A stretch of DNA of 64,000 nucleotides from Oligoflexia bacterium. Lineage in GTDB: Bacteria; Bdellovibrionota; Bacteriovoracia; Bacteriovoracales; Bacteriovoracaceae. Location: positions 1 through 64,000 of the forward strand of contig JADGAN010000026.1 in assembly GCA_015231955.1 (NCBI GenBank). The letters run 5' to 3'. Positions 13,904-25,737 of the stretch are shown piece after piece. The position numbers were made by a program, and so were the translations under genes. Every line of letters starts with the position of its first letter. Positions within the stretch are counted from its first letter, which is position 1. The notes below the pieces were generated by a model. The model did not search any database and was not told where the DNA came from. It was given only the letters and a program-made list of their open reading frames with translations.

Positions 13904-15697
13904 TTAGAAGTCATCGGCTTCTAAGAGGAGCGATTTTTGGAGATCGAGGGCGCTTGGGGAGGCACACTCTTTGAAGAGGCGTTCTGCCTGAGATTTGAAG
14001 GCGTTTTGTAAAACGCTTGCTACTGCGAGCGCGTTTTGGAAAGGGTGTGAGTGTGAATTTTGGCGAAGCTCTTCTATTATAGTTGAGAATTTTTTTTCAG
14101 CGGCCTCGCTTAGGTGATAACCGCTTTTGTGAGCAAGTTTGCGGCAAAGGGAGAGTAGCTCGCCACTATCAAGATCTCTAAAGTCGAGGGTGCTACTGAT
14201 CTTTCCTTGCAAATGCTTGTGTGATTTTAAAAGTGCTTGCATGGGAATTGTAGGGCCGGAAAGAATAATCGCAAGATTGTTGCCATACTCGCTCATGGCA
14301 CTGGAGATGGTATCAAGTGCTTCTGTTGCATAGGTATCGCCAAGCAAGCTGTGTGCATCGGAAATGAAAAGAATTCCCCCTAAGGCCTCCTTGATTTTTT
14401 CTTTGGTTTTTAGGGAGGTTTGACCAAGATAGGCAGCAACCAAAGAGGAGCGATCTGCTGTGATCACGTGGCCGCTACTCAGTAACTCGCTTTCGAAAAA
14501 ATAGTCGCCTAAAATATGGGCCACGCTATTTTTTCCGGTTCCGGGATTGCCACAAAAAACCATGTGCAAATTCAATTCGTGACTGGGGCCAGTGCTGGCG
14601 GAGTGTTTTAACTTTTGCAGTTTTAAAAAATCGCTGAGCTTTCTTAGCTCTCTTTTGACCTCTGTTATGCCATGGAGCTGTTGCAACTTCTCAAGAGAGG
14701 AGTGCTGCTTTTCCAGAGGAGGAAGTTTTTGATCGTCGGCAGGATCGGGCGTGAAATCGGAATAGACCAATTCGAGCAGTTGCGCTTGCGATAGCTCAGT
14801 CAAGTTTGCCGTAGAGAGGCGTAGTGCTTGTTGTGCAAGCGCTTTCTCAATCAAGTTGCGAACGGCGCGGCCATTGCCAAAGAAGCGACCTTTACGCCCT
14901 TGGCGAAGCAGTCGCATGCAGTAGTGGCGATTCTCCTTGGCAACGCTTAGTTTTAACTTAGAGAGCATGAGATCGAAGATGTGGCCTAGCTCTTCGTCGC
15001 TATAATCATCAAAGGAGATCAGGTGGGGAATCCGGCCTTTAAGGCCTGGATTTAGGTGTAAAAAATTTCGCATCTCTTCGGTGTAGCCGGCCAAGATCAA
15101 GACAAAATCGTTGCGGTAATCCTCCATGAGTTTTACCAGGGTATCGATACACTCCTGTCCAAAATGATCCTCGTTAGAGTTTTTGAGTGCATAGGCCTCG
15201 TCGATGAAGAGGATGCCTCCCATCGCTTTCTTGACGACGGCGGTGGTTTTAGAGGCGGTCTGGCCAACATACTCTGCCACTAAATCGGAGCGGGAGACTT
15301 CAATCAGCTGTCCCGTCTTGAGAGGGCCCAGCTTTTTTAGCTCTTGAGCATAAAAGCGGGCAAAGGTGGTTTTTCCGGTTCCTGGACTACCTGCAAAGAG
15401 CGCATGCAAAGTGACCTCGACAGCGGAAAATCCTCTGCGCACACGCTCTTGATTGATTTTTGTAAGCGCAATAACCTGTGCCAGCGCTGCTTTGGCAGCG
15501 TTTTGCCCGATGAAATCGGAGAGCTTGATCTCCTCTTTTGGAGCAGAAGGAGTTTCCGATCCCTTCTCATCGCTTATGGGAGGGCGCAAGGCCTCTTTGA
15601 TTTTGGAGTAGAGGTGCTCTCCCCAGATCTCTTTTAAGAGTTGCTCGCTATCATTTAATGGGTCGGAGTCGGAGGAGGATTTTTTTTGTGTTGTCAT
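13904..15697 (-). CDS. Tandem AAA+ ATPase of the CbxX/CfxQ (SpoVK) type
   Basis: This 597-residue protein has two AAA+ modules. Module 1 has Walker A GSPGTGKT (103-110), Walker B GILFIDEAYAL (161-171), the pore-like AEYVGQTASKT and sensor residues GYTEEMR; it looks complete. Module 2 has Walker A GNPGTGKN (383-390) and AAYLGQTSLKT, but Walker B reads GILFISDAHSL (441-451), so the DE pair is changed to SD and ATP hydrolysis there is doubtful. CbxX-type ATPases act as remodelling factors (Rubisco activase in red-type systems, EccA in type VII secretion, SpoVK in sporulation). The partner here is unknown. It is divergent from the OmpA-fusion operon with about 70 bases between, which may mean shared regulation. 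Confidence 0.85.
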   Translation of the reverse strand: MTTQKKSSSDSDPLNDSEQLLKEIWGEHLYSKIKEALRPPISDEKGSETPSAPKEEIKLSDFIGQNAAKAALAQVIALTKINQERVRRGFSAVEVTLHALFAGSPGTGKTTFARFYAQELKKLGPLKTGQLIEVSRSDLVAEYVGQTASKTTAVVKKAMGGILFIDEAYALKNSNEDHFGQECIDTLVKLMEDYRNDFVLILAGYTEEMRNFLHLNPGLKGRIPHLISFDDYSDEELGHIFDLMLSKLKLSVAKENRHYCMRLLRQGRKGRFFGNGRAVRNLIEKALAQQALRLSTANLTELSQAQLLELVYSDFTPDPADDQKLPPLEKQHSSLEKLQQLHGITEVKRELRKLSDFLKLQKLKHSASTGPSHELNLHMVFCGNPGTGKNSVAHILGDYFFESELLSSGHVITADRSSLVAAYLGQTSLKTKEKIKEALGGILFISDAHSLLGDTYATEALDTISSAMSEYGNNLAIILSGPTIPMQALLKSHKHLQGKISSTLDFRDLDSGELLSLCRKLAHKSGYHLSEAAEKKFSTIIEELRQNSHSHPFQNALAVASVLQNAFKSQAERLFKECASPSALDLQKSLLLEADDF

Positions 15698-15712
15698 AGT
15701 TGATCATTAGGT

Positions 15713-15740
15713 TTGAAGTTTATTAGAAACATTATATATT
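15713..15740 (+). promoter_or_regulatory. Candidate sigma-70 promoter of the OmpA/TelA/ABC operon
   Basis: TTGAAG (15713-15718), a 16-base spacer and TATATT (15735-15740) lie about 30 bases upstream of the first gene, in the short region between the divergent AAA+ gene and the operon. Confidence 0.45.
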
Positions 15741-15770
15741 AGAGATTATTGATCTGAAACAGGGGTGCAC

Positions 15771-17498
15771 ATGGAATTAGTCATTTTATTTTTAGCTTTG
15801 CTCAGTTGGCCCTTTTCCCTCGTGGCGGAGGAGTTTGCCTTTGTGGATTCTCCACCGCTTGCCAAAATAGTTAGTGAGCGCGTTCAAGATTGTAGCGCTA
15901 CCACTCCCATGCAGATTCCGATCATCACCTGGGGAGGCGACATCCCTACCATTTTTGCCAATGGCAATAAACTGGAGACGACGAAAGACTCCATCTTTGG
16001 AAAATTGGAGCTTAAGCTTAAATTACAGCGAGAGGATGTTTTTATGAATCAAGTGAAGGCCTACTTGCAATGCAAGTCTCCTTATTTGCGAGGAACGCTC
16101 TCCATGATTCAGATGGCATCGGAGGTTCTCTCTAAAGATAGTAGGAGCAAACCGGTGGTGATTTATCAGCTGACTTGGTCTGCCGGTGGGGATGCCTTGG
16201 TGGTGAAGGGTGCAATTAAAACCCCCAAAGATCTCAAAGGCAAAACCATTGTGGTGCAAGCGTATGGTCCGCACATTGATTACCTCGGAAAGATTTTAAA
16301 AGATGCTGGACTGAAAGTGAGTGATGTAAAAGTGCGCTTTACCAAAGATCTTACTGGCAGCAAGCAGTCGCCGATGAATGCCTTATACCGCGCCGATGTG
16401 GATGCGGTGTTTGTGATTTTTCCCGATGCCTTGAAGTTAACCTCCAATGGTACAGTTGGAACTGGTGCTGAAGATTCTGTCAAAGGCGCTAAGATCATGC
16501 TCACGACGAAAACCGCCAGCAGGATTATCTCCGATGTCTATGCCGTTCGTTCCGACTATTTTACTAGTCACAAAAAAGAGGTGATGAAATTTGTCCAGGG
16601 ATTGATGAAGGGGCAGGAGGAGACCAAGGCCTTGTTTAAAGATAAAGCGCAAAGAGGGGTGGAGTTTAAGGCCGCCCTCTCCGGTGTTGCCAAAATACTT
16701 CTTGATAGTGAACAGGCGGTGGCCGATGCAGAAGGGATGTATGCTGATGCCTATTTTACCGATTGGAATGATAATCTAAAATTTTTTAAGGATCAGAAGT
16801 ACCCTCGCGGTTTTGCTAAATTAAACCAGGAGATTAAAGAGACGCTGGAGGCGCTACAAATGCTCTCCTCCTCATCTTCATTATCTAGGGGTGGAGGGGA
16901 GTTGGTGCAAGCGGAGTGGGACTACAACCTTTTAAAGAAGGAGCTCAAGGGCAGCGCTAATCCTGAAGCGGATGCTCCTAAATTTAATGCAGACAAGGCC
17001 TCCCAGGTGGTGAGCAAAACGGCGTCAGAGGGTGATCTCTTTACATTTGAGGTGAACTTTAAGGCCAATCAAAACTCCTTTTCCACGCAGGAGTATGCGA
17101 CGGCCTTCCAAAAGGCGGTTGATCTTGCTGCCACTTATGCCGGTGCCGTGGTCACCATTGAAGGCCACTCCGATCCGCTCGGATACCTGCAGAAGAAAAA
17201 AGAGGGAGAGAGCGCTTTAGTGTTATCGCGGATCCGTCAATCGGCGAAAAATTTAAGCTTATCGCGTGCGATGGCGGTTAAGGATAGTCTTTTACAGTAC
17301 GCTAAGAGCAAAGGGATCTCTGTGGATCCTGGGCAATTTGTGATTGTCGGTAATGGCATTGATAAACCCAAAACCGGCCTTTGCGGTTCCGATCCTTGTG
17401 CTCCTAAAACTCAAGAGGATTGGCTAAGCAATATGCGAGTGGAGTTTCGTATCTTGCAAGTGGAAGCAGAGGCCAGTGTCTTCCAAAGTTTGGAATAA
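15771..17498 (+). CDS. Periplasmic binding protein fused to an OmpA peptidoglycan-binding domain
   Basis: The ATG at 15771 follows AGGGG by five bases and begins a signal peptide (to about AEEFAF); a GTG two codons upstream is less likely. Residues about 45-350 form an NMT1/SsuA-like solute-binding domain: PIITWGGDIPTIFANG, LKGKTIVVQAYGPHIDYLGK, ALYRADVDAVFVIFPDALK. After a Ser-rich linker (about 365-375), residues about 425-575 are OmpA-like: FEVNFKANQNSF, VTIEGHSDPLGY, LSLSRAMAVKDSLLQYAKSKG, VGNGIDKP and the closing MRVEFRIL. The fusion would fix a ligand-binding module to the cell wall. First gene of an operon of eight. From memory, databases name such proteins phosphate-binding/OmpA family; phosphate as ligand is not supported here. 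Confidence 0.8.
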   Translation: MELVILFLALLSWPFSLVAEEFAFVDSPPLAKIVSERVQDCSATTPMQIPIITWGGDIPTIFANGNKLETTKDSIFGKLELKLKLQREDVFMNQVKAYLQCKSPYLRGTLSMIQMASEVLSKDSRSKPVVIYQLTWSAGGDALVVKGAIKTPKDLKGKTIVVQAYGPHIDYLGKILKDAGLKVSDVKVRFTKDLTGSKQSPMNALYRADVDAVFVIFPDALKLTSNGTVGTGAEDSVKGAKIMLTTKTASRIISDVYAVRSDYFTSHKKEVMKFVQGLMKGQEETKALFKDKAQRGVEFKAALSGVAKILLDSEQAVADAEGMYADAYFTDWNDNLKFFKDQKYPRGFAKLNQEIKETLEALQMLSSSSSLSRGGGELVQAEWDYNLLKKELKGSANPEADAPKFNADKASQVVSKTASEGDLFTFEVNFKANQNSFSTQEYATAFQKAVDLAATYAGAVVTIEGHSDPLGYLQKKKEGESALVLSRIRQSAKNLSLSRAMAVKDSLLQYAKSKGISVDPGQFVIVGNGIDKPKTGLCGSDPCAPKTQEDWLSNMRVEFRILQVEAEASVFQSLE

Positions 17499-17534
17499 AT
17501 TGGAATAATCGAGGAAGAGGAAAAGGTAGGTGTG

Positions 17535-18314
17535 ATGAAAGCTATTCTTGTAATTGTTTTATTGCTAGCAGTGGCGATCTTTTTACAATCGAAATTTAGC
17601 AGTAAAAGTAGTAGTGAGCAACAGGAGGTGGTGAAAACGGAGACCCTGCTTTTACCGTGGCCTGGCGTTTTAAAAGAGGGGGAGCATTTAGAGAGTGTCG
17701 AGCGCTTTATTACGAGGAACTACTATATTATTCTCGATGGATCTGGAAGCATGGGCGAGAGTAGATGTTCCGGAAGCTCTACTAAAATAGAGGTGGCCAA
17801 AGAGGCCTTCCATAAGTTTATAGGATCCATTCCCAACAATGCTAACGTTGGTCTTGCGGTCTTTGATCGAGAAGGATTGTTCGAACGTGTAGCTTTGGCA
17901 ACAGAGAATCGTACGCTCTTAAACGAACAGGTAATGGCCGTAACTGTAGGAGAGGGGACTCCGCTGCGAGAGGCGATCTTGCTGGGCTTTCAAAAGTTGT
18001 CGGCACAAGCAGCAAGACAACAAGGTTATGGTGAATACCACCTTTTGCTGGTGACTGATGGTGAGGCCAATGAGGGCCAAGATCCGACAGCAGTGGTGGA
18101 CGCGATTTTGCAGGGTTCTCCAGTGGTCATTCACACCATCGGTTTTTGTATCGATGAAAACCACTCTCTAAACCAGAAGGGACGTATTTTGTACCAGTCG
18201 GCAGATTCGCCTGAAGAGTTACAGCAAGGCCTCCAAGAGGTTTTGGCAGAGGCCGTGGAGTTTCAGTCCCAGCTGCAGGTGGATAGCTTTAAGCAAAGCA
18301 GTGGCAACCAATGA
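17535..18314 (+). CDS. Membrane-anchored von Willebrand factor A domain protein
   Basis: I chose the ATG at 17535 (AGGTAGG upstream) over a GTG one codon earlier. A single N-terminal helix (about 2-17) anchors the protein. The rest is a vWA domain with an intact metal site (MIDAS): YIILDGSGSMGES gives DxSxS, GTPLREAI supplies the Thr, and LLVTDGEANEGQ the second Asp. Such domains bind protein partners through a divalent metal. The gene starts 36 bases after the first fusion gene and overlaps the next one by four bases, so co-translation is likely. In this setting it probably binds another member of the operon in the periplasm. Confidence 0.85.
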   Translation: MKAILVIVLLLAVAIFLQSKFSSKSSSEQQEVVKTETLLLPWPGVLKEGEHLESVERFITRNYYIILDGSGSMGESRCSGSSTKIEVAKEAFHKFIGSIPNNANVGLAVFDREGLFERVALATENRTLLNEQVMAVTVGEGTPLREAILLGFQKLSAQAARQQGYGEYHLLLVTDGEANEGQDPTAVVDAILQGSPVVIHTIGFCIDENHSLNQKGRILYQSADSPEELQQGLQEVLAEAVEFQSQLQVDSFKQSSGNQ

Positions 18315-19864
18315 AAACCAGTGCAAAACTTTTTTTTATCATCACTACTGTCGGTATCTTCTTGATGTTGGGGTACTATTTTGCAAAACCTTTTTGGGTG
18401 AAGAAGATTCAAATCTCCTCCTCTGATGCTGGCCAAGCGGAGGCCACACTTACCATTGGAGTTGATAGTTGGGCCGGCTATCTCCCTCTGTGTAGCGGTG
18501 AAATGCGCAAGCGCTTACTAAGCAAGGGGCTCTTACTTCAGTGTGAAAATGATAATGGTAACTATGCAGAAAGGATGCAAAAGCTTTACCAAGGAAAATT
18601 GGATTTTGCCGTGGCCACGGTGGACTCCTATATTTTAAATGCTGCTCAGTACGACTTTCCCGGGTCCATCATCATGGTGATTGATGAGTCCAAGGGAGGG
18701 GACGCCATCGTTGCTTTAAAAGATAAGATCTCTAAACTTGATCAACTGAAAACAAAACAAGGCTGGAAGATTGCATTTACTCCCGCCTCTCCTAGTGAAC
18801 ACCTCTTAAAGAGTATCTCCTCGCACTTTGATCTGCAGGCGATCAGGAATAAAAAGGGTGCTTGGAGAGTGGAAGTGAGTGGTTCTGAAGAGGCGAGAAA
18901 GCGACTGGAAGCAGGAGAGGTTGATCTTGCAGTCCTTTGGGAACCCGACATCTCCAAGGTGCTTGCCAGTGAAAAGATGGTTAAACTGATTGGCACCGAG
19001 GATACCAGGCGTTTGATTGTGGATATTTTAGTGGTGAACCGCAAGCTGGCCAAGGATCATCCCGAGTGGGTGAAAAAATTACTGATGGAGTATTTTAACG
19101 TTCTAAAATTTTTTAGAGATAATCCTCAAAGCTTAGTCGAGGAGATACGCTCACAAAGCAAAATTTCAGAGGAGCAAGCGCTCCAGGTGCTTCAAGGAGT
19201 GCGGTTTGTTAATTTAACGGAGAATGCGCGTGATTGGTTTGGCATTCCGGTGAATGGCCAGGGAAAAGATGGACTGGTCAGTACAATTGAATCCACCGTA
19301 GAGATCTTGCTCGAGCATCACGATTTCAAACAATCACCCCTGCCGGAGCGCGATCCTTATCGCTTGCAATATCGTACTTTCGTGGAGGAGTTGGTAAGCG
19401 ATTTAACTCAATTTGGGAACACTAGTGAGCAGCTGCCCAGTGGTAGTGGTGGTGGATTTCCTCCGCTTACTCCTGAACAGTGGGAGGCCTTAATGGAGAT
19501 AGGCACACTTAGAATCCGCCCCATTCCCTTTAAAAGTGGCACCATGGAGCTGGATGAAAACGGGGAGGCGGAGCTTGATTTACTGGTTCAAAACCAACTT
19601 TATCACTACCCTAATTTTAGAATTTTGGTGACGGGACATACCGGGAGTCGTGGTGATCGTCTGGCCAATCAAGAGCTCTCCTTACAGCGAGCGGAGGCGG
19701 TTAAAAAATATCTACTGGAGAAGCATAACTTAGATACAAATCGTATCCACTGCCTGGGAATGGGATCGGAGCGCCCTTTGCCGCAAGACCCGGGGGAATC
19801 AGAAAGAAGTTTTGAATATCGCTTGCCTCGAGTAGAATTAAAATTGTTGGCACCAACTATTTAA
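18311..19864 (+). CDS. Membrane-anchored binding protein fused to an OmpA domain
   Basis: This 517-residue protein has an N-terminal helix (about 6-25) without a clear cleavage site. Residues about 40-300 form an NMT1/SsuA-like binding domain (TLTIGVDSWAGYLPL, YQGKLDFAVATVDSYIL, RLEAGEVDLAVLWEPDISK). A linker with SGSGGG precedes an OmpA-like domain from about 385: FKSGTMELDENGEAE, ILVTGHTGSRGDRLANQELS, LQRAEAVKKYLLEKH, HCLGMGSERPLPQ and RLPRVELKLL. The layout would tie the inner membrane to peptidoglycan with a ligand-binding module between. It is a distant relative of the first gene of the operon, so the locus carries two such proteins plus a stand-alone binding protein. Confidence 0.8.
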   Translation: MKTSAKLFFIITTVGIFLMLGYYFAKPFWVKKIQISSSDAGQAEATLTIGVDSWAGYLPLCSGEMRKRLLSKGLLLQCENDNGNYAERMQKLYQGKLDFAVATVDSYILNAAQYDFPGSIIMVIDESKGGDAIVALKDKISKLDQLKTKQGWKIAFTPASPSEHLLKSISSHFDLQAIRNKKGAWRVEVSGSEEARKRLEAGEVDLAVLWEPDISKVLASEKMVKLIGTEDTRRLIVDILVVNRKLAKDHPEWVKKLLMEYFNVLKFFRDNPQSLVEEIRSQSKISEEQALQVLQGVRFVNLTENARDWFGIPVNGQGKDGLVSTIESTVEILLEHHDFKQSPLPERDPYRLQYRTFVEELVSDLTQFGNTSEQLPSGSGGGFPPLTPEQWEALMEIGTLRIRPIPFKSGTMELDENGEAELDLLVQNQLYHYPNFRILVTGHTGSRGDRLANQELSLQRAEAVKKYLLEKHNLDTNRIHCLGMGSERPLPQDPGESERSFEYRLPRVELKLLAPTI

Positions 19865-19888
19865 GAATTTAAGCATTGAGACCGTTTT

Positions 19889-20698
19889 ATGAATGATCTT
19901 AGAAAAAATAGTGCTAAAGTGGTTTTACAAGAGAGCTTGCAACACCCACTCACTCTCTTTCCAACGGCCGCAGGAATTTTGGGCGGGGTGGGCTCTGCGC
20001 TTTTTGGGGTCACTGCGCTTAGCGCTTCGCTGGCGATTGCAGGAATCACTATCGGGCTTGGAAGCTTACTTTTGAACTACTTCTATCGAGGCGACTACTT
20101 TATTTCCCGCCACCTCAAAGCGCTGCAAGTGCAGGCCGATCGACAGATGCAGCTACTAAGCGAGCGCTTAAAGCAATCGCTTAACCAGCGTGAGTTAACC
20201 ACGGAAGCTTCCCAGTTTGCAAAGCAGGCGCTTACACAATTAGAGCTATTGCAAAAAAAGTATCAAGGACTGAAAACACTTTTAGAGCGAAAATTAAATC
20301 CGCAAGAACTCACCTTTGGGCGTTTTTTAATGAGTGCCGATCAAGTTCACCATGCAATTTTGGACAATTTGGATATGATTGCGGATAAGCTTGCGGGACT
20401 TGCCTCCATTGATCAGCGCTACTCCGAAACCCGCATTCGCGAGATCAAACAACAACGTAGCATGGATGCGGCAGATGAGGAGGAGCTTAAAACGCTGCAG
20501 GCACGAGAAGAGTTAAGAGTCGCACACATGGAGAAGATTAATGTTTTGCTAACCTACAATGAACAAGCACTCACGGCGCTGGATAAGAGTAGTGCTGCGA
20601 TCACGGAGATGAAGGGTAAGTCGGGCCGCTCTCCAGTGGACCTCACCTTTGCTACGCAAGAGTTGGAGAGCATAGCAAACAGAGTACGAAACTTATAA
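19889..20698 (+). CDS. Membrane coiled-coil protein, XpaC-like partner of TelA
   Basis: This 269-residue protein has a hydrophobic hairpin at about 20-62 (LFPTAAGILGGVGSALFGV, LAIAGITIGLGSLLLNYFY). A long, mostly helical cytoplasmic part rich in Leu, Gln, Glu and Lys follows, to the end. That layout and the position directly before telA fit the XpaC-like proteins (named 5-bromo-4-chloroindolyl phosphate hydrolysis protein) that often sit beside telA. The name is historical and no enzymatic motif is visible. The family call is inference from layout and neighbour. The gene lies 24 bases after the OmpA fusion and 28 before telA. Confidence 0.5.
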   Translation: MNDLRKNSAKVVLQESLQHPLTLFPTAAGILGGVGSALFGVTALSASLAIAGITIGLGSLLLNYFYRGDYFISRHLKALQVQADRQMQLLSERLKQSLNQRELTTEASQFAKQALTQLELLQKKYQGLKTLLERKLNPQELTFGRFLMSADQVHHAILDNLDMIADKLAGLASIDQRYSETRIREIKQQRSMDAADEEELKTLQAREELRVAHMEKINVLLTYNEQALTALDKSSAAITEMKGKSGRSPVDLTFATQELESIANRVRNL

Positions 20699-20726
20699 TA
20701 AAAATCAAATCAATCTCGGGAGGTTT

Positions 20727-21914
20727 ATGATGTCTACCAATACGCTACAAGTTGCAGATGCCAAGAGCATTCGAGAAGATCTCGGTCTAAGTGAAACTGC
20801 CGATCTTGCAAAAAAACAGCTAGAGCAAGAGCTCGCAAGTGAGGCCGATAAATTTGTTAATGCCATCTTAAAACTAAATGCTGACGATGTTAGTGCTAAG
20901 GCCGATGGTAAACTTGCCATTGATAGCATGGGGGTTGGTTTGCAAAGACAAGCGGCCCAGCAAAGTAGCATGCTTAACCGGCCGGTAAAAGAGCTCTCCA
21001 AACGTGCTGAGGATGGAAGTGATGTCTCCAATGCTTTGATTAACCTTAAAATGGAGGTGGAGGCCTTGGATCCCGCACGCTTTGATTTTGAGGCGGGTTG
21101 GGCCAGTCGGATCGTGGGCATGCTTCCGGGGGTTGGCACCCCTTTAAAGCGCTACTTTAGCAAATATGAGAGTGCACAGACGGTGATTCAGGCAATTGTC
21201 AATTCGCTGGAACAAGGAAAGGAGCAATTGATTCGGGATAACAGCACGTTGTTAGCAGATCAGAAGGTACATCAAGAGCTTGCCTCTAAATTAAGCAAGG
21301 CCATTATGCTAGCGCTGGCCATAGATAAAAAACTAGAGGAGAAATTACAAGCGGAGGTGGCAAAAGATTCTAATCAATACCACTTTATTGCAGAGGAGTT
21401 GCTTTTTCCCTTACGCCAAAGGATCCTCGATTTACAACAACAATTGGCCGTCGGCCAGCAAGCGATTTTGGCGATGGAGATTATCATTCGTAACAACAAG
21501 GAGCTCGTCAGAGGGGTGAATCGCGCGCTCAATGTTACCGTTAGCGCTCTACAAGTGGGGGCCACTGTGGCCTTGGCCTTGATTGATCAAAAGAGTGTGC
21601 TGGATAAAGTTGAAAACATTAATCGCACCACCTCAGATTTGATTGCGAGCACGGCCGAGCGATTGAAAATCCAAGGAGCACAAATCCACAAGCAAGCTTC
21701 CAGCTCTCAACTGGACATGGAGTCGTTAAAGCGCGCCTTTGCCGATATTAAAATTGCCATGGATGATATTGCCAGCTTCCGTTTAAATGCGCTTCCACAA
21801 ATGGCACAAAGTGTATTGCAATTGGATCAGCTGACAGCAGAGAACCAGAAAGTGATTGAAAAAATGCAAAAGGGTAATCAAGCTACTCCTAAAATTACCA
21901 TTGATCTTAAATAA
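20727..21914 (+). CDS. telA: TelA-family toxic anion resistance protein
   Basis: This 395-residue soluble, almost entirely helical protein fits the TelA (KlaA) family in length and in segments such as NRPVKELSKRAEDG, VSNALINLKMEVEALDP, LPGVGTPLKRYFSKYES and AIMLALAIDKKLEEKL. TelA proteins are linked to tellurite resistance, envelope stress and antibiotic tolerance, but their biochemical role is not settled. GGGAGG lies six bases before the ATG. Its place between an XpaC-like protein and an ABC importer binding protein ties it to the envelope complex encoded here. No catalytic residues are apparent. Confidence 0.85.
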   Translation: MMSTNTLQVADAKSIREDLGLSETADLAKKQLEQELASEADKFVNAILKLNADDVSAKADGKLAIDSMGVGLQRQAAQQSSMLNRPVKELSKRAEDGSDVSNALINLKMEVEALDPARFDFEAGWASRIVGMLPGVGTPLKRYFSKYESAQTVIQAIVNSLEQGKEQLIRDNSTLLADQKVHQELASKLSKAIMLALAIDKKLEEKLQAEVAKDSNQYHFIAEELLFPLRQRILDLQQQLAVGQQAILAMEIIIRNNKELVRGVNRALNVTVSALQVGATVALALIDQKSVLDKVENINRTTSDLIASTAERLKIQGAQIHKQASSSQLDMESLKRAFADIKIAMDDIASFRLNALPQMAQSVLQLDQLTAENQKVIEKMQKGNQATPKITIDLK

Positions 21915-21924
21915 GGAGCTTTGT

Positions 21925-22977
21925 ATGAAATTAAAACTATTCTTGGTCGCATTCCTAACTTTAGTAAGTGTAAGTGCAACTCTGTACGCAGCAGAGAGCA
22001 AAGAGTTTGATGTGTGCTGGTCACACTATACCGGTTGGGAGCCGTGGGCCTATGCTGATGAAAAGGGTATTTTAAAAAAATGGGCGGATAAGTTTGGAAT
22101 TAAAATCAAACTCACTTTAGTGAACGACTACATTGAATCGATCAACCTCTACACCACTGGAAAATACCAAGCGTGTACCATGACCAACATGGACGCACTA
22201 ACGATTCCGGCCGTAGGTGGAATCGATAGCACCGCCTTGATCGTTGGCGACTTTTCTAATGGCAATGATGGGATTTTGACAAAAGAGGAGAAGTCGGTAA
22301 AAGAGCTTAAGGGAAAATCGATCAAGCTGGTACAACTCTCTGTCTCTCACTACCTCTTGTCACGGGCATTAGAGATGAATGGTCTTGCAGAAAAAGATGT
22401 AACTCTCGTAAACGCTAGTGATGCCGATATCGGTTCGCTTTTTATCTCAGATCCTAAAGCGGTTGTTGTCACTTGGAATCCCATTTTGATGAGTGCTAAA
22501 AAAGATAAGAATGCAAAAATTATTTTTGATAGCTCAAAAATTCCTGGTGAGATTATTGACCTGATGGTGGTGCGAACCGATGCTCCTGACACTTTAAAAA
22601 AGGCATTGGTAGGTGCTTGGTTTGAAACCATGAAAATGATGAATGTCTATGAAGCAAAGGATGTAAAGGCGGCAACAGAGGCCATCGAGTTCATGGCGAA
22701 GAAGGCGGGCAGTAGTGCTCTTGAATTCAAAGCACAGCTACAAACTACCTCCATGTTTTATGATGCTAAAAAGGCGGTGGAGTTCACCAAAAGTAAAAAA
22801 TTAATAGAGACCATGGACTATGTTCGCAGCTTTTCTTTTGATCATGGACTTTATGGACAAGGAGCAAAGAGTAAAGATTTAGTGGGGATGGAGTTTCCTG
22901 GTGGCAAGATCCTTGGTGATCCTAAAAATATCAAACTTCGTTTCAATGCAACTTATATGAGTGATAGCAACTTATGA
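21925..22977 (+). CDS. ABC importer periplasmic binding protein (NMT1/SsuA-like)
   Basis: The ATG at 21925 has AAGGAGC upstream and opens a signal peptide ending near LYAAES. The mature part begins FDVCWSHYTGWEPWAYA and continues with NDYIESINLYTTGKYQAC, TMTNMDALTIPA, VGDFSNGNDG, LVQLSVSHYLL and VVTWNPI. From memory this closely resembles the binding proteins described beside urea (guanidine) carboxylase genes. No carboxylase lies in the window, so the ligand cannot be named; urea, guanidine or another small nitrogen compound are possibilities. It forms the importer with the permease and ATPase that follow with overlapping starts. Confidence 0.85.
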   Translation: MKLKLFLVAFLTLVSVSATLYAAESKEFDVCWSHYTGWEPWAYADEKGILKKWADKFGIKIKLTLVNDYIESINLYTTGKYQACTMTNMDALTIPAVGGIDSTALIVGDFSNGNDGILTKEEKSVKELKGKSIKLVQLSVSHYLLSRALEMNGLAEKDVTLVNASDADIGSLFISDPKAVVVTWNPILMSAKKDKNAKIIFDSSKIPGEIIDLMVVRTDAPDTLKKALVGAWFETMKMMNVYEAKDVKAATEAIEFMAKKAGSSALEFKAQLQTTSMFYDAKKAVEFTKSKKLIETMDYVRSFSFDHGLYGQGAKSKDLVGMEFPGGKILGDPKNIKLRFNATYMSDSNL

Positions 22978-23798
22978 GTAACTTATTTTGTTTTGCAGGA
23001 TACGCTAAAGAGCGTTCTAAGTGGCCTGGTAGGTGTTATGCTATTTTTCCCTTCCTCGTGCTCGCAGCACTCTATTTGTACGCTTCTTATGCACGCTTAA
23101 GTGAGAATCCCCAAGACAAACTCTTACCCTCGATTGCACAAATGGTGGAGGCCACTCAGCAAATGGCCTTCACCCCTGATAAGCGAAGTGGGGAGTATCT
23201 TCTCTGGCAAGATAGCTTTGCAAGCTTAAAACGCATCTTTATCGGGATGGGGGCCGCTTCACTTGTGGGGTTATGCCTAGGGATACTTTGCGGACTCTTT
23301 GCTTTTTTTAGATCCCTACTTATTCCCTTTATTGTCTTTATCTCCATCATCCCTCCTCTGGCGATTTTGCCTATTCTCTTTGTTGCCTTTGGAGTGGATG
23401 AACTTGCCAAGGTGATGCTGATTTTCATCGGGGTTGCTCCAGTGATCACCAGAGAGATGTTTTTAGCAGCAAAAAATTTTCCCCTAGAACTTTTGACCAA
23501 GGCCATGACTTTGGGAGCGAACCCCTGGCAAGTTTGCGTACGTATTGTACTTCCACAACTCATCCCACGACTGCTGGAAACTGTAAGGCTCTCCCTTGGA
23601 AGTGCCTGGATCTTTTTAATTGCGGCCGAAGCAATTGCTTCCACCGATGGACTTGGTTATCGCATCTTCTTGATGAGAAGGTATTTGGCGATGGACGTGA
23701 TTATTCCCTATGTTTTTTGGATCACCATCCTTGGATTTGCCTTTGATTTTATTATTATTCGCTTTATTTTGTGGAGATACCCATGGTTCATGAAGTAA
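22974..23798 (+). CDS. ABC importer permease
   Basis: This 274-residue inner-membrane protein has about six helices and the EAA loop, MTLGANPWQVCVRIVLPQLIP, where the ATPase docks. Other helices include LIPFIVFISIIPPLAILPIL and SLGSAWIFLIAAEAIAS. The pattern is that of SsuC/TauC/NrtB-type permeases (BPD_transp_1). It starts within the last codons of the binding protein gene (ATGA overlap) and is followed by the ATPase with a 16-base overlap, so the three are made together. Confidence 0.9.
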   Translation: MSNLFCFAGYAKERSKWPGRCYAIFPFLVLAALYLYASYARLSENPQDKLLPSIAQMVEATQQMAFTPDKRSGEYLLWQDSFASLKRIFIGMGAASLVGLCLGILCGLFAFFRSLLIPFIVFISIIPPLAILPILFVAFGVDELAKVMLIFIGVAPVITREMFLAAKNFPLELLTKAMTLGANPWQVCVRIVLPQLIPRLLETVRLSLGSAWIFLIAAEAIASTDGLGYRIFLMRRYLAMDVIIPYVFWITILGFAFDFIIIRFILWRYPWFMK

Positions 23799-24676
23799 AA
23801 CACCTCTTGCATCTTGAAAATGTGTATCAAAGTTACGGCAGCAAACTAATTTTGGATAATATCGATCTTACAGTTTCTGCCGGCGAGCTTTGCACTGTGG
23901 TGGGGCCAAGCGGTTGTGGTAAATCAACTTTGCTACGATTGATTGTGGGCCAGGAGCAACCGCACTCCGGAACTGTTTTGATCGAGGGGAAGAGCGTAGG
24001 GATTCCCGATAAGCGCCGAGGCATCGTTTATCAGAAGTACTCCCTTTTTCCGCACTTAACGGTTCTGGAAAATATTTTGCTGGGTAAGCGCTTAACCCTA
24101 GGTAGCTTTGAGTGGCGTAAGCAAAAGCGGCAAATAAGTGAAGAGGCCTTGGAGTTTCTAAAAAAAGTTCACTTGCAAGAGCATCGTAACAAATACCCTC
24201 ATGAACTTTCAGGAGGGATGCAACAGCGAGTTTCCATCGTGCAAACCCTGATCATGAAACCCGATATCGTTTTAATGGATGAACCCTTCGGCGCTTTAGA
24301 TCCTGAAACCAGAGAGCAGTTGCAGATCTTCTTGCTGGAGTTATGGGAAAACCACCCCATGACCATCTTTTTTGTTACCCACGACCTGATGGAGGCGGTC
24401 TACCTCGGAACCAGAATCTTGGTGCTGTCTCACTACTACAGTGATGATCGTGGCCATGCCCCCGAAGTTCGTCGAGGCGCCCGCATTGTCGCCGATTACC
24501 CGTTAGAAAGAGTTGCAAGCTCCACCACCATCAAGAGCAGCAAAGTGTTCACCGATTTAGTTCAGCAAATCAGAAAAGAGGGTTTTGATCCCAAGAGCAC
24601 TACTCACGTGAGCGCGTTCAATTTAAAACACAAAGACTCCTTCCAAACCTTAACTCCAGAAGAGCACGCTCCTTAA
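23783..24676 (+). CDS. ABC importer ATPase
   Basis: The ATG at 23783 follows GGAG by six bases and lies inside the permease gene. All nucleotide-binding motifs are present: Walker A GPSGCGKST, Q-loop YQKYSLFPHLTVLEN, signature LSGGMQQRVSI, Walker B VLMDEPFGALD and switch FFVTHDL. It belongs to the SsuB/TauB/NrtD group (sulfonate, taurine, nitrate and related importers). A tail of about 60 residues after the catalytic core may be regulatory. It is the last gene of the operon; a separate promoter follows before the carbonic anhydrase gene. Confidence 0.92.
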   Translation: MVHEVKHLLHLENVYQSYGSKLILDNIDLTVSAGELCTVVGPSGCGKSTLLRLIVGQEQPHSGTVLIEGKSVGIPDKRRGIVYQKYSLFPHLTVLENILLGKRLTLGSFEWRKQKRQISEEALEFLKKVHLQEHRNKYPHELSGGMQQRVSIVQTLIMKPDIVLMDEPFGALDPETREQLQIFLLELWENHPMTIFFVTHDLMEAVYLGTRILVLSHYYSDDRGHAPEVRRGARIVADYPLERVASSTTIKSSKVFTDLVQQIRKEGFDPKSTTHVSAFNLKHKDSFQTLTPEEHAP

Positions 24677-24767: not shown

Positions 24768-24795
24768 TTTACCAACCTCTCATTAGGTGGAGTTA

Positions 24796-25737
24796 ATGAA
24801 ATTATTAAACAAAAAAACTTTATTATCATCATCATTGCCAATATGCTTGCTCTTAAGTTTTTCTCTTGCGATCAGTACTAAAGCTAAAGCTAGAGATGAA
24901 GATGAAGAGAGTGGCAGTGCTGCTGCTACTGCGGTAGAGGGGAAGCCAGCACCGACAGCGATGGATGCTTATCGCGAGTTAGAGCAAGGGAATAAACGGT
25001 TTGTGCAAAATCGTATGATCCATCCCAAGCAAGATCAATTTACCAGATCCTTACTTAGCAGTGGACAAAAACCAAATGCAATAGTGCTCTCCTGTTCCGA
25101 CTCACGTGTGCCTCCTGAGATTCTTTTTGATCAAGGGTTGGGACAAATTTTTGTGGTAAGAACGGCGGGGCAAGTGGCAGACTCCATCGCCATCGGAAGT
25201 ATTGAGTATGCACTTGAGCACTTGGGAACTCGGCTGCTTATTGTCTTAGGCCACGACTCTTGTGGGGCAGTGAAGGCGACACTAGCGACCCCTCCAGGAA
25301 AGAGTAGTGGTTCTCTCCACATCGATCGTATCATTGAGAGTATTCGCCAAAATTTAGGGCCGATCAATGAGAATGCACCTCTGGTTGATAGCAAACTCAT
25401 TTCCAAAGTACGCGATAATGTGAATGCCGAGATCAAGGCCCTCATTGCCAAGTCCCACATTATCCGTGAATTTATTGATAAGGGAGAGTTGGTGATTGCC
25501 AGTGGGATTTACCATCTAGATTCGGGAGAGGTAGAGTTTTGGTCGGCGGGAGTACCCATTATCATCGATGCCTTGCCTAAGATGCGGATGCAACAGCATA
25601 CCGATAGGCCTCCTCTGCCACCCCAGCATTTAGAGAGTGCTGGAGGGGATCGGGATCGTGCTCGTGCTCGTATCATTAATCGCAAAATTCTCTATTCCGA
25701 TCCTGGACCTGGCCTAGTGAAGAGTAGGCACCATTAA
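24796..25737 (+). CDS. Periplasmic beta-class carbonic anhydrase
   Basis: The ATG at 24796 follows AGGTGGAG. A signal peptide (about 1-32) directs the enzyme to the periplasm, which is less usual for beta-class enzymes. The zinc site is complete: SCSDSRVPPE gives Cys and the Asp-Arg dyad, and GHDSCGAVKA gives His and the second Cys. The enzyme interconverts CO2 and bicarbonate. About 60 extra residues after the core (from about QQHTDRPP) are polar and probably disordered. It has its own promoter but lies just after an importer of the NrtA/CmpA superfamily. A link between bicarbonate supply and that importer is possible but unproven. Confidence 0.9.
   Translation: MKLLNKKTLLSSSLPICLLLSFSLAISTKAKARDEDEESGSAAATAVEGKPAPTAMDAYRELEQGNKRFVQNRMIHPKQDQFTRSLLSSGQKPNAIVLSCSDSRVPPEILFDQGLGQIFVVRTAGQVADSIAIGSIEYALEHLGTRLLIVLGHDSCGAVKATLATPPGKSSGSLHIDRIIESIRQNLGPINENAPLVDSKLISKVRDNVNAEIKALIAKSHIIREFIDKGELVIASGIYHLDSGEVEFWSAGVPIIIDALPKMRMQQHTDRPPLPPQHLESAGGDRDRARARIINRKILYSDPGPGLVKSRHH

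Follow-up and report, generated by a model that had tools for sequence, protein, structure and literature searches.

A TelA operon of solute-binding proteins, a von Willebrand factor A protein and an ABC importer, with a linked AAA+ ATPase, in a Bacteriovoracaceae genome

What is a TelA protein doing among solute-binding proteins and the parts of an ABC importer? TelA is a common protein that owes its name to tellurite resistance, and to our knowledge there is no consensus on what it does at the molecular level. The question is raised by eight co-directional, tightly packed open reading frames (ORFs) on the forward strand of contig JADGAN010000026.1 (assembly GCA_015231955.1) from an Oligoflexia bacterium of the family Bacteriovoracaceae; the window analyzed here is the whole 64,000-nucleotide stretch from position 1 of this contig. 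The eight genes (P1 to P8; 15,771-24,676) are separated by spacers of 33, 24, 28 and 10 nt or overlap by 4, 4 and 16 nt. A first-pass annotation had read them as one operon, and all eight ORFs were indeed found on one strand, with Pfam and NCBIfam matches for the von Willebrand factor A (vWA) protein with its metal ion-dependent adhesion site (MIDAS) (P2), for TelA (P5) and for the full ABC importer (P6-P8). A conserved divergent neighbour, an AAA+ ATPase gene at 13,904-15,697, had been overlooked, and the conservation of this neighbourhood indicates that it belongs with the operon as its ninth gene. We see about an even chance that the nine genes encode a ligand-responsive membrane-maintenance machine that is remodelled by the AAA+ ATPase and in which TelA does the job of PspA. 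The genes are as follows, with SBP standing for solute-binding protein and TM for transmembrane.

13,904-15,697, reverse strand: AAA, a double AAA+ ATPase of the SpoVK/CbbX type, divergent from the operon (TIGR02881, 436 bits).
15,698-15,770: divergent intergenic region, 73 bp between the AAA+ gene and the ATG of P1, with promoter-like hexamers on both strands.
15,771-17,498, forward strand: P1, exported SBP (NMT1/SsuA-like) fused to an OmpA domain, signal peptide ending in SLVA (Pfam/NCBIfam: NMT1 2e-8; OmpA 2.7e-5, slightly below the cut-off).
17,532-18,314, forward strand: P2, membrane-anchored vWA protein with a complete MIDAS (VWA 2e-10).
18,311-19,864, forward strand: P3, N-terminal membrane anchor, SBP domain and OmpA-like domain (OmpA 1e-17, NMT1/Phosphonate-bd).
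19,889-20,698, forward strand: P4, two-TM hairpin followed by a helical bundle (AlphaFold model; no Pfam family).
20,727-21,914, forward strand: P5, TelA (PF05816), soluble, with a long helical hairpin (226 bits against a gathering cut-off of 30, 9e-67).
21,925-22,977, forward strand: P6, soluble exported SBP, TIGR03427 ('putative urea'; 473 bits against a curated cut-off of 334).
22,974-23,798, forward strand: P7, ABC permease, TauC/SsuC-like (BPD_transp_1).
23,783-24,676, forward strand: P8, ABC ATPase (ABC_tran).

Do these genes belong together outside this genome? When 84,980 species were scanned with a five-row alignment of P1, at least 120 relatives came up, which is a lower bound because candidates needed a match to one of two short peptide patterns, and 80 loci (numbered L below) were kept. 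The loci were picked out by P1, so that evidence can come only from the presence of the other genes. In the 48 loci flanked on each side by 1.5 kb or more, hereafter both-flank loci, the vWA protein was found in 45, P4 and the second SBP-OmpA protein in 43 each, the plain SBP in 34, and the permease and the ATPase in 31 each. Annotation with hidden Markov models (HMMs) gave the order SBP-OmpA, vWA, SBP-OmpA, P4, TelA (where present), SBP, permease, ATPase nearly everywhere, with 14 plus 11 loci showing the full order and additional loci deviating only by a relocated ATPase or permease. The 80 loci cover more than ten phyla, including Pseudomonadota, Thermodesulfobacteriota, Bdellovibrionota, Myxococcota, Acidobacteriota, Verrucomicrobiota, Planctomycetota, Lentisphaerota, Poribacteria, KSB1 and Elusimicrobiota, and nearly every intact locus is colinear; some of them come from metagenome-assembled genome (MAG) bins that are possibly misbinned, and the candidate phyla radiation (CPR) cases and 'Bordetella parapertussis' MAG titles are doubtful. 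The gene set occurs together far beyond chance. Its recurrence in other genomes, in colinear form across these phyla and also on megaplasmids and huge phages, strongly supports the earlier proposal of one envelope machine. Within the same phylum, an independent Bacteriovoracaceae MAG (G202, locus L016) carries P1 to P7 in the same order with 43-71% identity, up to the end of its contig. The host genome has a single TelA, and a search of 57 other relatives found no TelA, so that the operon occurs only sporadically in this lineage.

The clue to the role of TelA comes from the fifth slot of these operons. TelA was found there by HMM in 25 of the 48 both-flank loci, and Pfam adds two divergent TelA proteins (L061 and L065), which brings the count to 27. 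A PspA-like coiled-coil protein of 270-280 aa occupies the same slot in twelve others, and no locus contains both. The PspA-like version is found in Acidobacteria, the Planctomycetes-Verrucomicrobia-Chlamydiae (PVC) group, Poribacteria and most phage versions, and the TelA/PspA label changes only twice on the P1 tree, against 14.1 times when the labels are shuffled. Profile comparison identifies the slot protein of these sister operons as PspA-related: hhalign aligned it with true PspA at 91.6% probability (E 8e-7, 222 columns), against 2.9% for the reversed profile, and one slot protein weakly matches PF04012 (E 0.003). Against PDB sequences its profile reached Vipp1/PspA entries at E 0.03-0.1 amid generic coiled coils, which is not decisive alone. 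The same slot with the same neighbours is thus filled by either of two helical proteins with no detectable relation to each other, and the economical reading is that TelA and the PspA-like protein share a job; we regard this exchange as a strong hint at the role of TelA. No PF04012 match was found anywhere in the host genome, which is therefore without PspA.

TelA as a homologue of PspA was considered and rejected (hhalign 0.3%). Its structural model is of low confidence (predicted local distance difference test score, pLDDT, 60) with helices at residues 139-210 and 216-303, and a comparison of TelA with PDB sequences gave no informative match. Fold searches that started from the models of P4 and of TelA gave helical bundles of every sort and were judged non-diagnostic; PspA and Vipp1 entries are absent from the matches listed for these models, which excludes nothing. 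According to work cited in PMC12791056, TelA mutants of Listeria show an increased sensitivity to nisin and a mildly increased one to tellurite.

The PspA version of the operon has been noted before. Two sentences in section 18 of Ravi et al. 2024 (PMC11237479) describe it and infer ATP-dependent membrane remodelling tied to solute transport, which counts in favour of a remodelling machine in the window as well. The claim of an undescribed system was therefore too strong as first made, since published work has already outlined this kind of operon, of which the one here is a TelA variant. What stands of that claim is the TelA version with its vWA partner: that text of Ravi et al. mentions neither TelA nor von Willebrand domains, and literature searches for TelA with OmpA, vWA or SBP proteins yielded no description of this set. 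Also absent from that text are the layout of two SBP-OmpA proteins plus one SBP, the alternation of TelA with PspA and the occurrence on huge phages. The operons of that class (PspA/Snf7-AAA+-ABC-PBPB-OmpA), as outlined there, have the slot order of the PspA-type loci found here, and the window shares with them the SBP-OmpA proteins, the ABC permease and ATPase in one operon and the linked AAA+ gene. It differs in having TelA where PspA sits, in a P4 that is not demonstrably Snf7, in a vWA protein, and in an AAA+ ATPase of SpoVK/CbbX type in which the second rather than the first module is degenerate.

By inspection, the first module of this ATPase is intact (Walker A GSPGTGKT, Walker B FIDEA) and the second carries GNPGTGKN and FISDA. 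Its homologues occupy the same divergent position in L017, L019 and L022 and lie 3 bp past TelA in L027, and these four loci cluster with the window in one part of the P1 tree. Other AAA+ families were found beside or inside the operon in 28 further loci. An AAA+ ATPase of one type or another stands beside the operon in 33 loci, its type tracking the P1 phylogeny within the clade of the window. In Acidobacteria the AAA+ gene mostly lies directly against the stop codon of the ABC ATPase gene or overlaps it. At least three distinct AAA+ families were observed to adjoin the operon by clade (L054 14,356-15,978; L055 5,956-7,617; L067-L074 downstream of P8), and they include two-domain proteins that match the words 'N-terminal copy inactive' of Ravi et al.

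Could the older association of TelA with tellurite explain the operon? In the XpaC-TelA (YaaN) pair of Firmicutes and Gammaproteobacteria, TelA also lies beside a two-TM helical protein. P4 had been labelled XpaC-like; this label is not supported, as none of the 46 P4 homologues matched PF10112 (XpaC) and the profile-profile comparison gave 3.4%, confined to the TM stretch. Against PspA, P4 scored 9.9% versus 10.7% for the reversed control, and neither Pfam nor profile-profile comparison supports an assignment of P4 to XpaC, PspA or Snf7. The AlphaFold model of P4 is of high confidence (pLDDT 91.5); its fold search gave weak BAR-domain matches (such as Lsp1/Pil1, probability up to 0.96, TM-score about 0.3), which were likewise judged non-diagnostic. 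Thirty gammaproteobacterial TelA loci were read, and 24 of them have XpaC beside TelA and no P4, whereas four with a system-type TelA have P4 and no XpaC. P4 and XpaC are therefore mutually exclusive beside TelA, and P4 occupies the position of XpaC with no detectable homology to it. The XpaC loci differ further in containing no SBP, vWA or ABC genes and in their TelA; gammaproteobacterial TelA falls into two separate sequence classes, a high-scoring one beside XpaC (L145-L169) and a lower-scoring one beside P4 (L170-L174, like that of the window, 20,727-21,914). A module for resistance to toxic ions such as tellurite or metals is very improbable in our view. The historic name of TelA and the MIDAS metal site of P2 speak for it, whereas NMT1-type SBPs serve import and not export, neither a reductase nor an efflux pump is present, and the system-type TelA groups apart from the XpaC-linked one.

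The extracytoplasmic proteins are strongly conserved in their functional residues. The MIDAS residues of P2 (D69, S71, S73, T143, D176) are kept in 79-80 of 80 homologues, and the SBP residues of P1 (G142 D143, G168 P169 H170, D221, D257, R262) are invariant in 78. All three SBP families retain conserved pocket-like residues of their own. In OmpA and Pal, peptidoglycan is bound through an Asp and an Arg of the OmpA_C site, and P1 keeps both (D470 and R501, 78 of 78 homologues). In P3 the Arg is kept in 72 of 72 homologues and the Asp in a single one, which makes wall binding by P3 doubtful. Of the two binding proteins first described as tethered to peptidoglycan, P1 is predicted to be so, whereas P3 has lost the Asp in 71 of 72 homologues. 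Several TelA-type P1 proteins carry a two-cysteine motif, TGxCGxxPCAP, near the C-terminus (about 17,370-17,420 in the window) that is missing from the aligned phage version. The Vibrio P2 begins with a lipobox-like MGC. A stand-alone pair of an SBP-OmpA protein and a vWA fusion was found on V. coralliilyticus p380 (L005 11,249-14,917), and the same small gene precedes this pair and the operon on the Vibrio plasmids.

What might be captured? P6 to P8 resemble the importers of urea carboxylase/UAAP operons, a pathway now seen as guanidine assimilation (PMC12186494). It is thus conceivable, albeit unlikely, that the operon is a specialised importer in which P6 to P8 take up guanidine, urea or a related nitrogen compound, P1, P3 and P2 boost capture at the cell wall, and P4, TelA and the AAA+ ATPase serve assembly or quality control with no separate output. 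P6 is 49-55% identical to plasmid SBPs of urea/guanidine-carboxylase operons, P6 of the Acidobacteria-type operons forms a clade with carboxylase-linked SBPs (support 100/99) and shares with them the loop WSIYVGWMP, and the conserved pocket-like residues of the three SBP families also suit an importer. However, P6 of the TelA-type operons, including the window, has WSHYTGWEP as its first pocket loop, and TelA, PspA or AAA+ proteins are not normally needed for nutrient import. Moreover, a full-length urea/guanidine carboxylase occurs in four of 51 host genomes and is lacking from 47; the host of the window has no full-length carboxylase, only a biotin-carboxylase-domain match below the cut-off. 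The window operon has the homologous SBP-permease-ATPase trio, whereas it differs from the carboxylase operons in the altered pocket loop and in the addition of SBP-OmpA, vWA, P4, TelA and AAA+ proteins. No carboxylase or allophanate hydrolase was found among the ORFs of the operon region, nor does the operon contain a deiminase. The Rfam search of the window and six relatives had no match and hence revealed no guanidine riboswitch. Against PDB sequences, P6 matched distant sulfonate/taurine-type SBPs. With the carboxylase rare in hosts and no riboswitch found, guanidine or a close analogue would be no more than a first guess for the ligand of P6 to P8.

The operon is also found on mobile elements. 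The Vibrio megaplasmids pAM7, pSEA2 and pIFO15642 carry all eight genes with the ATPase shifted to the front and pairwise identities of 22-52%. Complete or near-complete operons were found on IMG/VR contigs of 435,946, 494,120 and 545,322 bp and in phage LR756511 (595,163 bp), the 545-kb contig having the TelA version and the other three the PspA-like slot protein. An abbreviated set of a permease, an ATPase, a helical protein and two SBP-OmpA proteins occurs in Bacillus phage G (gp243-gp250). These phage operons are loci L137, L139, L141, L143, L008 and L009 (7,269-13,332). LR756511, phage G and the 545-kb contig each have a terminase; none was found on the remaining IMG/VR contigs, whose viral status is the IMG/VR assignment. 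In the P1 tree, LR756511 and a 107-kb contig cluster with Planctomycetota, and phrog_25518 ('unknown function') corresponds to the SBP-OmpA family. On the 545-kb contig, P6 and the permease are separated by an inserted gene for an HNH-like endonuclease (L143 10,335-11,198).

Such carriage would be expected of a Ter-like conflict or exclusion system that closes off or modifies the envelope to block superinfecting phages, conjugation or toxins, an explanation that we consider quite unlikely. It draws on the huge-phage contigs of 436, 494, 545 and 595 kb with their complete operons, the short set in phage G, the Vibrio megaplasmids and the sporadic occurrence in the phylum of the window, and a role of this kind has been proposed for TelA in the Ter systems of jumbo phages (Iyer et al. 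2021, PMC7824862), where TelA is likewise found with a vWA protein. Most loci, however, lie on ordinary genome contigs, several cultured ones on large chromosomal contigs, and the gene content is strongly conserved with no hypervariable effector, unlike typical conflict systems. PADLOC gave no full-length model match, only partial matches to generic OmpA, ABC and AAA parts. The operon further differs from the Ter systems in its extracytoplasmic vWA protein, in the added importer and SBPs and in the lack of TerC, TerD, TerB, phosphoribosyltransferase (PRTase) and haloacid dehalogenase (HAD) enzymes among the nine proteins; TerC, TerD, TerB and nucleoside-synthesis proteins were also lacking among the ten proteins scanned at the locus.

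Other features around the operon are less telling. P1 starts at the ATG at 15,771, which is preceded by GGGG; the start given by the ORF finder is a GTG at 15,765. The intergenic region (15,698-15,770) has promoter-like matches of 10/12 on the reverse strand (15,758-15,731) and 9/12 on the forward strand (15,713-15,740), which are only suggestive because the total of such sites is not above chance. An exported-looking beta-carbonic anhydrase gene lies directly downstream of the operon (24,787-25,737) with its own promoter-like site and is probably a separate transcription unit. A conserved protein of about 200 aa with no Pfam match adjoins three operons (L022, right after TelA; L038 6,499-7,101; L063 13,070-13,669).

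How, then, could a membrane-maintenance machine with TelA in the place of PspA work? The nine products would form one trans-envelope complex. Outside the inner membrane, P1 on the peptidoglycan, P3 anchored in the inner membrane and the free P6 would, together with P2 as a metal-dependent vWA adaptor, bind a solute of small size, in all likelihood a polar or cationic compound in view of the guanidine/urea/taurine importer family, and hand it to the ABC importer P7/P8. Inside, the two-TM helical P4 would recruit the membrane-associated helical TelA, which may maintain or remodel the inner membrane as PspA may in the sister operon, and the AAA+ ATPase would turn the P4-TelA assembly over. The output would be membrane protection or controlled permeability, dependent on the ligand or on the state of the envelope. 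The coupling of small-molecule capture to an intracellular TelA response, as first suggested, is plausible. Several points weigh against this mechanism. The slot exchange is the single line of evidence for a PspA-like activity of TelA, because no homology to PspA is detectable and the TelA model is poor; no AAA+ gene was found near the operon in marine Gammaproteobacteria (Pleionea and Arenicella loci), in the Vibrio loci with their plasmids or in phage LR756511; and the presence of P1 in the loci is built in, as they were retrieved through it.

More broadly, and only tentatively, TelA may do the work of PspA/ESCRT-III-type proteins without being homologous to them, and the operon family may be a ligand-gated, AAA+-driven membrane-remodelling machine that reached many bacterial phyla partly through huge phages and megaplasmids; if so, the whole TelA family would gain a function. 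The sharing of one slot by TelA and a PspA-like protein among the same partners offers a direct and cheap swap test of TelA function. The operon also points to a coupling between the capture of solutes at the cell wall and the maintenance of the inner membrane, and huge phages and megaplasmids would thereby carry an unexplained cargo that acts on the envelope.

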